Source: Planctomycetota bacterium (GTDB lineage: Bacteria; Planctomycetota; MHYJ01; JACQXL01; JACQZI01). Taken from it: a DNA stretch of 64,000 nt. The translations under genes were made by a program, and so were the position numbers. The stretch's first letter is position 1; each line of letters starts with the position of its first letter. The notes under the pieces are model-generated. The model saw nothing but the letters and a program-made list of their open reading frames with translations. It was not told where the DNA came from and searched no databases. Shown here one piece after another: positions 53,799 to 58,617 of this stretch. The stretch spans positions 33,994 through 97,993 of the forward strand of contig JACQZI010000017.1 of the NCBI GenBank assembly GCA_016207825.1, given 5' to 3'.

Positions 53799-55238
53799 CT
53801 ATCCTTTTATTACTCCTAATGGTTTAAACTTTGCTACTTTTTTGCTTATTCCGGTTTCATCCATCACGCGAACCACATCAGTCACATTTTTATACGCCTG
53901 GGGCATTTCTTCTGCCAGCCCTCCGCGGCTTTTACTCATCACAAACACACCCAAAGATTCCAACTCCTTAAAAAGATCATGGTTTTTCATCTGCTTAATC
54001 ATCTGGGAACGGCTGGCGACCCTGCCTGCCCCATGACAGGCGCTGCCGAAAGTCTGCTTCATAGCTTCTTCCGTTCCGACACATAAATATGAACTACGCC
54101 CCATGTCACCGGGGACTAAAACCGGCTGGCCTACAGAGCGATAAACTTCAGGTACGGAAAGATGCCCCGGAGGAAACGCCCTTGTTGCTCCTTTACGGTG
54201 CACACATACTTCCTGCTTCTTTCCATCTATTTCATGCTTTTCTATCTTGGCAATATTATGAGCCACGTCGTATATTAATTCCATTCCCAATTCCCGCGGA
54301 GAAATACTGAGCGATTTAAGCAACGCCTCCTCAGCCAGCGCCATAATCACCTGGCGGTTTACCCAGGCGTAATTAGCCGCGCAAGCCATGGCAGACAAAT
54401 ATTCCCTGCCCTCTTCGGATTTTAACGGGGCGCAAGCCAACTGGCGGTCAGGCAAACTTATTCCATATTTCTGGGCAGCTTTAAGAAGCTTCTTCACATA
54501 ATCATCACAAATCTGGTAGCCGAATCCGCGAGAACCGCTGTGAATTGCAATCACTATCTGGCTTAAATCCAAACCTAATATCTTTGCAATATCCGGGCGA
54601 TAAACCTCCTCCACCCTTGCAATTTCAAGGAAATGGTTACCGGAACCTAATGTTCCCACCTGAACCAAGCCGCGCTTTATGGCATCACTGCTGACTATTG
54701 AAGGTTCGGCAAATTCTATTCTGCCTTCGTCTTCCGTATGCTCCAAATCTTCAGCTTCACCATAACCTTTTTCCACAGCCCAACGAGAGCCCTTAATCAA
54801 TAACTGTTTTTCATCCTGCGGTGATAATTTAGGAATGGCACCTTCTGAACCAACGCCGGAAGGAATGGCATTATACAAATCTCTGACTATCTCCTTGATT
54901 TTGGATTGCACATCATCTACGGTAAGATTAGTCCGCATTAAGCGAACTCCGCAGTTTATATCATAACCCACTCCGCCCGGAGAGATAATGCCTTTTTCCA
55001 TATCAAAAGCCGCCACGCCGCCAATGGGAAACCCGTAACCCCAATGGATATCAGGCATAGCCAATGAATATTTAATAATACCAGGCAGGCAGGCAACATT
55101 AACAACCTGTTCAAGGCTTTTATCCTCCTTGATTTTCTCCATCAATTTCGCGCTGGCGTAAACTCTGCCCGGGACATTCATCCGGCCTTCAGGCGGAATT
55201 TCCCAAAGGTTATCGTTTATTCTATTTACCGTTATCAT
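53799..55238 (-). CDS. rtcB: RtcB RNA ligase
   Basis: 479 residues. RtcB joins RNA 2',3'-cyclic phosphate ends to 5'-OH ends with GTP and Mn2+. Seen are the Asp/Cys metal site (GGVGYDINCGVRLMRTNL), the His ligands (LGSGNHFLEIARVEEV, IAIHSGSRGFGYQ, YDVAHNIAKIE), and the nucleophile His in GSACHGAGRVASRS. Length and order fit the archaeal/bacterial long form. Archease is encoded six bases upstream, a common pairing, and a tRNA gene precedes that. Confidence 0.95.
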   Translation of the reverse strand: MITVNRINDNLWEIPPEGRMNVPGRVYASAKLMEKIKEDKSLEQVVNVACLPGIIKYSLAMPDIHWGYGFPIGGVAAFDMEKGIISPGGVGYDINCGVRLMRTNLTVDDVQSKIKEIVRDLYNAIPSGVGSEGAIPKLSPQDEKQLLIKGSRWAVEKGYGEAEDLEHTEDEGRIEFAEPSIVSSDAIKRGLVQVGTLGSGNHFLEIARVEEVYRPDIAKILGLDLSQIVIAIHSGSRGFGYQICDDYVKKLLKAAQKYGISLPDRQLACAPLKSEEGREYLSAMACAANYAWVNRQVIMALAEEALLKSLSISPRELGMELIYDVAHNIAKIEKHEIDGKKQEVCVHRKGATRAFPPGHLSVPEVYRSVGQPVLVPGDMGRSSYLCVGTEEAMKQTFGSACHGAGRVASRSQMIKQMKNHDLFKELESLGVFVMSKSRGGLAEEMPQAYKNVTDVVRVMDETGISKKVAKFKPLGVIKG

Positions 55239-55244
55239 TATTCG

Positions 55245-55664
55245 CTAAACATCAAATATTATTTCGGCCTGCCATCCGCCATTTGTTTCTTTTACAGAAA
55301 GATTATGAAAAGTTACCGCCTTAATTTCCTTTTGGATAACATGCTTACCAGGATTAAAATCCTCACCTTTTATTATAGCCTTAAGCTGCCGGTTATCTAT
55401 GGATTCTATCGCAAAAGCACTTAATAATCGTTTATTAACGGTATACTCTTTTAATAAGCGGCTTAACCAATAATTCATTAACTCCTCTATATTATCCGCA
55501 GTTATTGTTATTTCTTCCTGGATTAACGGTTTTATTTGCTTAATAGACGTCATGACATCAAACAATGCAAAACCGGCATTATCAAAAAGTTCGGCAAGAG
55601 TTTTCCCTCTAACCCGAATGCCTATATCCGCAGTGTGAGGAATAAATTCATAGAAAGACTTCAT
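55245..55664 (-). CDS. Archease
   Basis: 139 residues with the family pattern HTADIGIRVRGKTLAELFDNAGFALFDVMT, MNYWLSRLLKEY and VTFHNLSVKET, including the metal-binding Asp at the start. Archease speeds the guanylylation of RtcB and allows many turnovers. It sits between a tRNA-Leu gene and rtcB on the same strand. Confidence 0.93.
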   Translation of the reverse strand: MKSFYEFIPHTADIGIRVRGKTLAELFDNAGFALFDVMTSIKQIKPLIQEEITITADNIEELMNYWLSRLLKEYTVNKRLLSAFAIESIDNRQLKAIIKGEDFNPGKHVIQKEIKAVTFHNLSVKETNGGWQAEIIFDV

Positions 55665-55674
55665 ATAAATGGAT

Positions 55675-55720
55675 CGCCCAGCTCCGCATCCTGAACGCGT
55701 TCGGGGTGCGGGGCTGGGCG
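55675..55720. repeat. Long inverted repeat reaching into the tRNA-Leu 3' end
   Basis: Two 21-base arms (CGCCCAGCTCCGCATCCTGA... and its partner) around the 4-base loop CGCG. All 21 positions pair on the plus strand if G-U is allowed. On the tRNA strand three positions mismatch. The right arm contains the 3' acceptor strand of the tRNA (55716-55720), so the trailer carries a copy that can pair with the tRNA end. Confidence 0.7.
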
Positions 55721-55797
55721 AGGAGGGAGTTGAACCCTCACCCCCTTGCGAGGAGAGGATTTTAAGTCCTCAGCGTCTGCCATTCCGCCACTCGCCC
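55715..55797 (-). tRNA. tRNA-Leu (anticodon UAA)
   Basis: 83 nt. Acceptor stem GGGCGAG/CTCGCCC, D arm with GCGG...CGC, anticodon stem GAGGA/TCCTC around CTTAAAA (anticodon TAA), a long variable arm as in class II tRNAs, T arm GAGGG-TTCAACT-CCCTC, discriminator A. CCA is not encoded. Confidence 0.92.
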
Positions 55798-55852: not shown

Positions 55853-55882
55853 TTGACTCAAATAGATTGTTTTTAGTATATT
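55853..55882 (+). promoter_or_regulatory. Leaderless promoter of the AmmeMemoRadiSam unit
   Basis: TTGACT (55853-55858), 18 bases, TATATT (55877-55882). The ATG follows six bases later at 55889. Confidence 0.6.
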
Positions 55883-55888
55883 AAATAT

Positions 55889-57436
55889 ATGAGAGTTTTA
55901 AAACCAGGATTTATGGTTTTGGCATCCTTTTTGGCGTTAATCGGCTTAGCTTGCCCCAAGAATGAACAAATACTTACCGAACAACCAGAATTAACACCTG
56001 ACAGTTTTACAAAAAATAAGGAGGTAACAGGAAACATGATACATCATTTTACTTTAAGCGAAGGATGGGTACCGTCAAATAAAACAACTCTGCAAAAAAC
56101 CATCAAGGAGCTCTTGGAAAAGACTGAAATTAAAAACGAGGATATCTTCAAACAAGAAAAAACACGCGGATTGATAGCTCCCCACGCCGGCTATCGCTTT
56201 TCCGCCCAGTGCGCGGCATACGCTTATAAAACACTGGAAGGAAAATCCTACAAAAGAGTATTCGTGCTTGGACCTAATCACCATGTCCGCGGATTAAAAG
56301 GAGTTTCAGTATCCAAATCAACTCATTACGAAACACCTCTCGGAGAAGTTCCTGTTGACACACAAGCTTGCAAAGAGCTGTTGCAAAACAAGCATTTTAG
56401 CCACGTGGCGGAAACAGAAGAAGGCGAGCATTCAGTGGAAATCCAAATACCGTTTTTGCAGACACTTCTTAATGAATTTAAACTTATACCGATTGTGGTA
56501 GGCGAGCTAAGTTTAAAAGAAATGCAGCAAGTAGCGGAAACCATCCAAGCTTATGTTGATGATGAAACACTGGTCGTTGCCAGTTCTGATTTCATGCATT
56601 ACGGCGAAGGTTTTGGTTACAGCCCTTTTACCGATAACCTCCGGGAAAATATCTACAAAACGGACCTTGAAGCAATCCAGCACATTACCACATTAGATAT
56701 ATCATCCTTCCAACAATACCTGAATAAAACGGAAAATACTATTTGCGGAAGAAACCCCATCACTTTATTAATGGCTATATTACCGGATACAACCGGAATG
56801 TTGCTCCATTATTATACGTCAGGAGATCTCACGAATGATTTCGAAACATCTGTCAGTTATGCCGCAATAACCTTTACCGATTATAAATTGACGGATGACG
56901 AACAGGAAACTCTTTTGCGATTAGCGCGTAAAACGATCCAAACATACCTAAAAAATGGAGAGAAACCGGCGATAGCCCCGGAAAAACTTACTCCTGCATT
57001 AAGCAGGCCAAAAGGGGTTTTTGTCACATTAAAGAAAAAAGATCAGCTGCGGGGCTGCATCGGATGCATCCCGCCAACTAACCAGCTCTACCAAGCGGTC
57101 ATTGATTATGCCATAAATTCAGCTATTAATGATCCCAGGTTCAGGCCGCTGGATTTATCAGAAGAACCGGTGGTTGATATTGAAATCTCCGTATTGAGCT
57201 CGCTCAAAAGAATAAAAGGACCTGATGATATTGTGATTGGAAAACATGGGGTATATTTAATAAAAGGACGAAACGCCGCTATATTTCTCCCTCAAGTCGC
57301 TCCGGAGCAAGGCTGGAACAGGGATACTATGCTGTCAGAATTATCCTTGAAAGCCGGTTTAGATGAAAACGCCTGGCGTGAAAAAGACACTCTTTTTTAT
57401 GTGTTTACCGCACAGGTTTTCGGGGAAAAAGAATAA
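55889..57436 (+). CDS. AmmeMemoRadiSam fusion: Memo domain (system B) + AMMECR1 domain (system A), lipoprotein
   Basis: 515 residues. A signal sequence with the lipobox IGLAC (Cys22) marks it as a lipoprotein. Residues about 85-330 are a Memo-like dioxygenase-fold domain (RGLIAPHAGYRFSA, VFVLGPNHHVRG, HSVEIQIPFLQTLL, VVASSDFMHYGEG), with the His residues of the metal site. Residues about 350-515 are AMMECR1 (GVFVTLKKKDQLRGCIGCI, AINDPRFRPLDLSEEP, VDIEISVLSSLKRI, EQGWNRDTMLSELSLKAG). In other genomes the A and B parts occur with a radical SAM protein, as here 11 bases downstream. The function of the system is not known. Confidence 0.9.
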   Translation: MRVLKPGFMVLASFLALIGLACPKNEQILTEQPELTPDSFTKNKEVTGNMIHHFTLSEGWVPSNKTTLQKTIKELLEKTEIKNEDIFKQEKTRGLIAPHAGYRFSAQCAAYAYKTLEGKSYKRVFVLGPNHHVRGLKGVSVSKSTHYETPLGEVPVDTQACKELLQNKHFSHVAETEEGEHSVEIQIPFLQTLLNEFKLIPIVVGELSLKEMQQVAETIQAYVDDETLVVASSDFMHYGEGFGYSPFTDNLRENIYKTDLEAIQHITTLDISSFQQYLNKTENTICGRNPITLLMAILPDTTGMLLHYYTSGDLTNDFETSVSYAAITFTDYKLTDDEQETLLRLARKTIQTYLKNGEKPAIAPEKLTPALSRPKGVFVTLKKKDQLRGCIGCIPPTNQLYQAVIDYAINSAINDPRFRPLDLSEEPVVDIEISVLSSLKRIKGPDDIVIGKHGVYLIKGRNAAIFLPQVAPEQGWNRDTMLSELSLKAGLDENAWREKDTLFYVFTAQVFGEKE

Positions 57437-57447
57437 GGGTTTTTATT

Positions 57448-58617
57448 ATGGGAATCTCCCGACGCAAGTTCCTTAAAATAGCAGGCGTAACTTCAGCCGG
57501 CATCATCGCAGGAGCAGGAATAACAAAATTATTGTTCATACATGATAAACCTATAAAAACACCTCCGATGATAAATGCCGAATCATCTGATGACAAACCC
57601 GGCCTCCATGAAGCCATGTTTTACGAAAAACTCCCTGATAAAAAGATCAAATGCACTATCTGCCCAAGGTATTGTGTGGTATCGCCCGGCAATCGCGGCT
57701 ATTGCAGAAATAAAGAAAACCGTGAGGGGATTTATTACACGCTGGCGCACTCAAAAGCATGTTCAACTGCAATCGACCCTGTTGAAAAAAAACCGCTTTT
57801 CCATTTTTTGCCGGGAAGGAGGGCTTTTTCCCTGGCAACCGCTGGATGTAATTTCCAATGCCAAAACTGCCAGAACTGGCAGATTTCCCAATCAGACCCC
57901 GATAAATTAAAAAGCCAGGATTTATTTCCCCAAACAATAGTTACTATATGCCGGGAAAAAGAAATTCCGGTTATCGCCTTTACCTATTCCGAACCGACGG
58001 TTTTTTATGAATACATGCACGATACGGCAAAAATCGCCCGGGGAAACGGAATCGCCAGCGTAATGATTTCCAACGGCTATATAAACGAAAAACCGCTCAA
58101 GCGATTATGCCAAGAACTTAGTGCGGTAAAAATAGACCTGAAATCTTTCAGCGACGAGTTTTATCGGAAAATCTGCGGCGGCCAGCTACAACCGGTTTTA
58201 GATACTCTTTTAACACTGAAGAAAATCGGCATCTGGTTTGAAATCGTAACCCTGATTATCCCCTCATTAAACGACAGCGAAGGGGAAATAGAAAAAATGT
58301 GCCTCTGGATCAAAGAAAACCTTGGGACAAATATTCCTTTGCATTTTTCCCGATTTACCCCAACTTATAAACTTACGAATTTACCGCAGACACCGGTGAG
58401 CACTTTGGTAAAAGCATATAATATCGCACGCACAACGGGCTTGAACTTTGTCTATTTAGGCAATGTTTCTCCTCACGATTATGAATCCACTTACTGCCCG
58501 AATTGCAAAACCACTTTAATAAAAAGAACCGCATTTGATGTAAAAACAATTAGCCTGAAAAATGGAAAGTGTTCATCCTGCCAGACATCTATTCCTGGCG
58601 TTTGGCAAGTGAAATAA
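57448..58617 (+). CDS. AmmeMemoRadiSam system radical SAM enzyme with Tat signal
   Basis: 389 residues. The N-terminus is a twin-arginine signal (SRRKFLKIAGVTSAGIIAGAG). A Cys-rich block follows (CTICPRYCVVSPGNRGYCRNKEN), then the radical SAM [4Fe-4S] motif CNFQCQNC (C-x3-C-x2-C) and the barrel (IAFTYSEPTVFYEYM, ASVMISNGYINEKPL, AVKIDLKSFSDEFY). A C-terminal zinc ribbon has CPNCKTTLIKR and GKCSSCQTSIPG. A Tat signal fits export of a folded, cofactor-loaded protein and matches the lipoprotein partner upstream. Confidence 0.9.
   Translation: MGISRRKFLKIAGVTSAGIIAGAGITKLLFIHDKPIKTPPMINAESSDDKPGLHEAMFYEKLPDKKIKCTICPRYCVVSPGNRGYCRNKENREGIYYTLAHSKACSTAIDPVEKKPLFHFLPGRRAFSLATAGCNFQCQNCQNWQISQSDPDKLKSQDLFPQTIVTICREKEIPVIAFTYSEPTVFYEYMHDTAKIARGNGIASVMISNGYINEKPLKRLCQELSAVKIDLKSFSDEFYRKICGGQLQPVLDTLLTLKKIGIWFEIVTLIIPSLNDSEGEIEKMCLWIKENLGTNIPLHFSRFTPTYKLTNLPQTPVSTLVKAYNIARTTGLNFVYLGNVSPHDYESTYCPNCKTTLIKRTAFDVKTISLKNGKCSSCQTSIPGVWQVK

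Follow-up and report, generated by a model that had tools for sequence, protein, structure and literature searches.

The AmmeMemoRadiSam system is described by three protein family models, TIGR04335 (AMMECR1), TIGR04336 (Memo) and TIGR04337 (radical S-adenosylmethionine (SAM) enzyme), of which a cytoplasmic location is no stated part. Radical SAM enzymes require SAM and a reductant, both cytoplasmic, and the presence of SAM and low-potential electrons inside the cell is the reason why they are regarded as intracellular. Memo and AMMECR1, which have links to disease, are conserved as far as humans; the human proteins MEMO1 and AMMECR1 are separate and intracellular. Here we analyse a 64,000-nucleotide stretch of DNA of a Planctomycetota bacterium (assembly GCA_016207825.1, contig JACQZI010000017.1, positions 33,994 to 97,993), hereafter the window, in which a gene for a Memo-AMMECR1 fusion protein is followed by a gene for a radical SAM enzyme. 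Both products carry signals that point to the envelope. Comparison with related loci makes it very probable that the system is located outside the cytoplasm, as an earlier note on this DNA had predicted; the prediction is supported by the conservation of the signals, their co-variation between the partners and the co-occurrence of a membrane protein, here called MFS-SpeE.

The literature searched named no periplasmic, exported, extracytoplasmic, secreted, membrane-anchored or lipoprotein radical SAM enzyme, which is not proof of absence. Memo-AMMECR1 radical SAM relatives are mentioned in passing in PMC7159879, with no word on export, and no exported radical SAM enzyme of the AmmeMemoRadiSam kind is found in PMC10924467 and PMC2964644. 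Judged by sequence, the exported system is a variant of a known family; radical SAM catalysis outside the cytoplasm would be of a new kind, should it be demonstrated.

The two proteins and their export signals

Both open reading frames were found in tandem at the positions previously given for them (Table 1), on the same strand and separated by 11 bases. In NCBIfam comparisons, residues 56–329 of the fusion protein match TIGR04336 (223 bits, cut-off 26) and residues 341–511 match TIGR04335 (170.6 bits, cut-off 99), and the protein also matches PF01875 and PF01871 of Pfam. The radical SAM enzyme scores 373 bits against TIGR04337, for which the cut-off is 220. All three components thus exceed their cut-offs, are encoded side by side and retain the cluster motif and the metal site, which places them in the AmmeMemoRadiSam family. 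The locus differs from the described system in that both products bear signals and that MFS-SpeE is linked or co-occurs, whereas canonical, high-scoring members in the phylum have no signal.

The fusion protein starts with MRVLKPGFMVLASFLALIGLAC, in which residues 18–22 form the lipobox IGLAC, with R2 and K5 in the n-region and Cys22 as the predicted lipid-bearing residue. The Gly at position −3 is unusual for a lipobox. The charged n-region, the h-region and the lipobox Cys expected of bacterial lipoproteins are all present, and orthologues agree. The radical SAM enzyme starts with MGISRRKFLKIAGVTSAGIIAGAG and carries the consensus twin-arginine translocation (Tat) motif SRRKFLK at residues 4–10, followed by an uncharged hydrophobic stretch, a combination (SRRxFLK plus hydrophobic h-region) typical of Tat substrates. 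The lipobox and the Tat signal claimed earlier were both confirmed in this way, the former by a PROSITE-type pattern. TatC is encoded in the window's genome (E 5.9e-61). No obvious AxA cleavage site follows the window's Tat signal, which is therefore possibly retained as an anchor; AxA-like sites occur in relatives such as L051. In the AlphaFold2 (AF2) model, the signal forms a helix (residues 5–30) ahead of a low-confidence linker. Signals were called by simple pattern rules, and the Tat rule also fires on about 8% of unrelated neighbouring genes. A single call hence proves little, and the weight rests on conservation.

Conservation was assessed in two sets: 294 Planctomycetota genomes, from which radical SAM loci were extracted and N-termini classified (phylum sample), and 80 loci from a scan of named genomes of many phyla (named set). 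Radical SAM enzymes with a hydrophobic N-terminus lacking the RR pair are designated HYD. The Memo residues H99, H131 and C286 are equivalent to H49, H81 and C244 of human MEMO1, which are iron/copper ligands (PMC11081632), and are invariant in 34 fusion proteins. The same applies to R388, G389, C390 and G392 of the AMMECR1 motif RGCxG, which reads RGCIG in the window and is shared with human AMMECR1. Unlike their human counterparts, the two domains are fused in the window and predicted to be lipoprotein-anchored. In the radical SAM enzyme, the cluster cysteines C134, C138 and C141 are invariant in 42 exported sequences from the phylum sample (alignment A1) and in 54 from the window plus the named set (A3). 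Of the N-terminal cysteines, C69, C72 and C86 are invariant in the 42 and C69, C72 and C76 in the 54. In both alignments the TYxEP motif is nearly invariant, and K232, E265 and H299 are invariant or nearly so. The AF2 model of the enzyme (pLDDT 94) is closest to SAM-bound pyruvate formate-lyase (PFL) activating enzyme among solved folds (3cb8/3c8f; for 3cb8 Z 23.3, rmsd 2.1, 225 residues aligned). It shares the radical SAM core with that enzyme and differs from it by a Cys-rich N-terminus and a C-terminal Cys4 motif.

Conservation of the signals and agreement between partners

In a 120-row tree of radical SAM enzymes from the phylum sample, the 44 Tat-bearing rows are explained by 4 label changes, compared to a mean of 35.9 after shuffling. 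Within the clade of the window's enzyme, all intact members bear a Tat signal. Inside the Tat group, a signal is missing only from fused members and from three rows that are truncated at contig ends (L043, L096, L176), and five HYD rows form a separate, starred clade. Residues R5 and R6 are invariant in the 42 aligned Tat-called enzymes, the signals having otherwise diverged, and the canonical high-scoring enzymes of the sample (L008–L037) have no signal. The window's genome (97.6% complete) encodes three TIGR04337 proteins, namely the enzyme of the window, a signal-less paralogue (L002, starting with MFEASYYEVIKPDD...) and a paralogue with its own Tat signal, ISRREFFK, encoded beside a secreted Spy-like protein (L003). 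The latter pairing (L003/L117; contig 7, approximately 156985–157983) recurs in 13 loci of the phylum sample and marks another exported subclade.

In the named set, the rule found an RR pair in 27/80 loci and KR in 16/80, the Bacteroidota having mostly KR (e.g. SKREFLK). A joint multi-phylum FastTree of 199 rows, 103 exported and 91 not, required 5 changes (shuffled mean 64.3).

The fusion partner follows the same pattern. A survey of homologues for co-occurring signals, as proposed in the earlier note, found signals on 23/23 intact fusions beside exported radical SAM enzymes of the named set (19/19 beside Tat, 4/4 beside HYD), compared to 2/6 beside signal-less ones (p = 6e-4). In the phylum sample, nearly all fusions bear signals and stand-alone Memo proteins do not. 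Within the window's order, lipoboxes are seen on the fusions of L062 (VVGC), L177 (LISGC) and L065 (VSFAC), and those of L183 and L045 have another N-terminal hydrophobic signal or segment. The earlier note had regarded missing signals in most orthologues with this gene order as evidence against its proposal; instead, 4/4 intact two-gene orthologues of the window's order combine an envelope-targeted Memo-AMMECR1 with a Tat-bearing enzyme. The fifth is a fusion of Memo, AMMECR1 and the radical SAM enzyme behind a single N-terminal membrane segment (L045:2669-4972 of G183, one 768-amino-acid open reading frame). This triple fusion is without the C-terminal third of AMMECR1 and is either real or an assembly deletion.

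The co-occurring MFS-SpeE protein and candidate electron carriers

Clustering of the neighbours of exported radical SAM enzymes led to a polytopic protein of 700–850 amino acids with a central Spermine_synth domain (PF01564), MFS-SpeE. In the named set, it is encoded in 24/41 Tat, 5/10 HYD and 2/27 signal-less loci; of the last two, L202 has a Tat-like sequence (TRKEFLK) that escaped the rule, and L254 adjoins a lipoprotein Memo. The protein is present in 50/294 genomes of the phylum sample (E up to 1e-60), comprising 43/48 with an exported-type system and 7/246 of the others, whose low-scoring radical SAM enzymes were inspected in part. Counted by family, it occurs in 28/32 with an exported system and in 1 of the rest; apart from this family count, relatedness is ignored in the p-values. 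Among Bacteroidota loci, MFS-SpeE accompanies 7/9 exported and 0/5 signal-less enzymes (p = 0.02). The window's genome encodes a full-length MFS-SpeE on contig 5 (E 1.4e-210), away from the radical SAM locus. The search for co-conserved envelope proteins that had been suggested thus yielded a candidate, which strengthens the case for the location.

In the AF2 model of MFS-SpeE (pLDDT 88, pTM 0.89), a SpeE fold is preceded by 7 helices and followed by about 7 others, so that the SpeE-like domain is an insert between transmembrane segments TM7 and TM8 (Z 30.9 to 1uir, 287 residues). In its membrane part, the fold is similar to that of MFS transporters (SV2A, POT). Counts of Lys and Arg in the loops alternate in 21/21 sequences, predicting an internal N-terminus and an external SpeE-like domain, with which the C-terminal half agrees. 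In canonical MFS proteins, the TM7-TM8 loop is likewise outside. The protein shares the SpeE fold and an MFS-like membrane part with spermidine synthase and fused MFS-spermidine synthases (PF01564, PRK03612, NF037959). It differs from these in the predicted periplasmic position of the insert, in failing to reach the cut-offs of the aminopropyltransferase equivalog models (202 bits at best, against 472) and in its catalytic Asp region. Because this region looks changed, we read MFS-SpeE not as a spermidine synthase but as a transporter that bears a binding domain of nucleoside type. Fold, topology and co-occurrence make it a concrete candidate for handling SAM, decarboxylated SAM or 5'-deoxyadenosine, though for SAM itself we regard this as a tentative assignment that may well prove wrong.

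A DsbD_2-type membrane protein is encoded in 9/15 HYD loci. Those of L039, L212, L217 and L232 adjoin the HYD enzymes, and in L039 and L232, the two that were scanned, FMN_bind and Fer4_5 domains are fused to them. These domains are NosR/RnfG/NapH-like, and the DsbD/FMN/4Fe-4S proteins may represent routes of a reductant to the outer face of the membrane. In three Tat-bearing radical SAM enzymes (L206, L237, L247), a CxxCH motif lies between the signal and the catalytic domain, possibly a haem c site. As proof of haem c the motif was discarded, being suggestive only: the C-terminal ribbon gives rise to CxxCH as well. An ApbE-like flavin transferase, recognised by eye (L276:573-1559), is encoded two genes upstream of MFS-SpeE in G075.

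Proposed mechanism, alternatives and remaining features of the locus

We propose that folding of the radical SAM enzyme and insertion of its Fe-S cluster(s) take place in the cytoplasm, before the Tat translocase moves it across the inner membrane; it would then sit on the outer face, perhaps with its signal helix kept as an anchor. Memo-AMMECR1 would reach the same side through Sec and be anchored there next to the enzyme as a lipoprotein, and the two would perform a radical- and metal-dependent step on some envelope substrate. MFS-SpeE, with its presumed periplasmic SpeE-like domain, could supply the S-adenosyl cosubstrate or remove products, and envelope carriers could deliver the electrons; in one clade, the system lies beside the DsbD/FMN/4Fe-4S membrane protein. 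That the two genes form such an extracytoplasmic AmmeMemoRadiSam system is in our view the probable explanation of the locus; the full mechanism, with SAM handled by MFS-SpeE, is a hypothesis to which we give less than an even chance.

If true, the widely conserved exported branch implies SAM-type cofactors and a strong reductant at the envelope, and would extend the modifications of the envelope by a new class. What Memo and AMMECR1 do, still an unsolved question, would be constrained as well, as their substrate in these bacteria would have to be reachable from outside the cytoplasm. Both signal-bearing partners are found in bacteria of many phyla, which suggests that radical SAM chemistry may also occur outside the cytoplasm. 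A bolder version, to which we give somewhat less than an even chance, is that many phyla possess a complete extracytoplasmic radical SAM pathway with its own SAM and trans-membrane electron supply, and that a single Memo-AMMECR1 gene with two starts supplies both compartments in some lineages.

The second start is located within the window's fusion gene, where a perfect Shine-Dalgarno sequence, AAGGAGGT, precedes an in-frame ATG by 10 bases, 13 codons ahead of the Memo domain. No Shine-Dalgarno sequence was found upstream of the lipoprotein ATG, on which the transcription start, predicted by eye, falls. For comparison, a Shine-Dalgarno sequence of at least 7 bases occurs at 0/351 internal ATGs in the window and at 0.7% in related loci. 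The aligned ATG and Shine-Dalgarno sequence are also present in L062, L177 and, weakly, L045. The window's genome has one Memo and one AMMECR1 gene, and each of the other genomes with the internal start likewise has one Memo gene. The internal ATG is absent from G075 and G223, the two genomes of the order that encode a distinct, cytoplasmic Memo. The internal start, seen in four related genomes, a small number, may serve dual localisation or be a remnant of the step in which the signal was acquired.

Several observations weigh against the proposed extracytoplasmic system. To our knowledge, SAM has so far not been demonstrated in the periplasm. The catalytic Asp region of the SpeE-like domain appears altered by eye, from DxTDP to xxPEP, which leaves the fold as the basis for proposing that MFS-SpeE binds SAM. 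One clade (L041, L049, L055, L066, L067) has a signal-less radical SAM enzyme that adjoins an exported Memo-AMMECR1 in 4 loci, and in some genomes, such as G082, an exported Memo-AMMECR1 was found but no Tat-bearing radical SAM enzyme. The HYD clade bears Sec-type segments, which are hard to square with export of a pre-folded Fe-S protein. The internal start could yield a signal-less, cytoplasmic form of Memo-AMMECR1; together with the signal-less clade, it points to a possible cytoplasmic role for part of the system as well.

That clade and the strong internal start also favour a reading in which the radical SAM enzyme works before export, where SAM and reductant are present. Its target could then be Memo-AMMECR1 or a substrate exported together with it; alternatively, the enzyme could take a single pre-bound SAM along. 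Once outside, the protein would be spent or otherwise employed. All other exported lineages, however, keep a Tat or hydrophobic N-terminus on the enzyme over many phyla, which work in the cytoplasm alone would hardly explain, and the Bacteroidota loci with signal-less enzymes are without MFS-SpeE. We consider action before export unlikely. The background of the Tat rule, the lack of an AxA site and the atypical lipobox Gly would fit sequences that arose by chance or serve as mere anchors, with the catalytic domains facing the cytoplasm. A chance origin was rejected on the clustering in the trees and the co-variation of the partners. The invariant RR pair within a long-diverged clade, the matching signals on two independent partners and the signal-less paralogue in the same genome leave little room for this explanation as a whole.

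It is similarly improbable that the exported enzyme has given up SAM radical chemistry and serves the Memo metal site as a periplasmic Fe-S electron-transfer or sensor protein. This would suit an environment in which known SAM is lacking, the electron carriers among the neighbours and the CxxCH motifs ahead of the catalytic domain in three Tat-bearing enzymes. It is at odds with the (nearly) invariant cluster triad, SAM motif and residues K232, E265 and H299, and with a modelled fold that matches a SAM-bound enzyme. That fold match is also what favours an activase of glycyl radical enzymes of the PFL type. This already disfavoured candidate was rejected and retains hardly any probability: the enzyme scores 51 bits against the PFLA cut-off of 231.75, and the Gly_radical domain was found in 0/9 genomes of the order, which thus has no partner enzyme.

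Table 1 Features of the locus, numbered from the first letter of the window
Feature	Position	Strand	Basis
Promoter-like TTGACT-18 nt-TATATT	55853..55882	+	By eye
Memo-AMMECR1 fusion (AmmeMemoRadiSam proteins B + A), predicted lipoprotein, 515 amino acids	55889..57436	+	Profile matches over cut-off
Lipoprotein signal MRVLKPGFMVLASFLALIGLA/C, lipobox IGLAC	55889..55954	+	PROSITE-type pattern match
Internal Shine-Dalgarno AAGGAGGT (56018-56025) and in-frame ATG (56036-56038)	56018..56038	+	Sequence
Memo metal-site residues H99, H131, C286	56183..56749	+	Alignment to 3bcz
AMMECR1 RGCIG motif R388-G392	57050..57064	+	Conserved in fusions
AmmeMemoRadiSam radical SAM enzyme, 389 amino acids, predicted Tat-exported	57448..58617	+	TIGR04337, AF2 model
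Tat signal MGISRRKFLKIAGVTSAGIIAGAGITKLLF	57448..57537	+	Motif, conservation in clade
N-terminal Cys-rich motif C69-x2-C72-x3-C76 ... C86	57652..57705	+	Alignment
Radical SAM cluster motif C134-x3-C138-x2-C141	57847..57870	+	Alignment
C-terminal Cys4 ribbon-like motif C350, C353, C375, C378	58495..58581	+	Alignment, kept in exported radical SAM enzymes
Coiled-coil-like protein, one N-terminal transmembrane segment	58710..59807	+	Downstream partner kept within order
Downstream protein with N-terminal hydrophobic segment	59810..60775	+	Homologues near system

Homologues of the coiled-coil-like protein, for which NCBIfam and Pfam scans gave no family match, adjoin the system in L045, L062, L065/L185, L177 and L183. 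Homologues of the second downstream protein in L065/L185 and L183 have lipoprotein-type signals (FFLPGC, FFLAAC). These operon partners were rejected as the substrate: kept in the order only and without a family match, they cannot account for the wider system. DUF362-type proteins are encoded upstream of Tat-bearing radical SAM enzymes in L186, L188, L196 and L061 (PF04015 confirmed for L188, the others assigned by similarity), and those of L186, L188 and L061 have an RR motif at the start. Directly upstream of the fusion gene, on the opposite strand (53799-55797), lie genes for an RtcB RNA ligase and an archease, an ordinary RNA-repair pair, with an adjoining tRNA-Leu.

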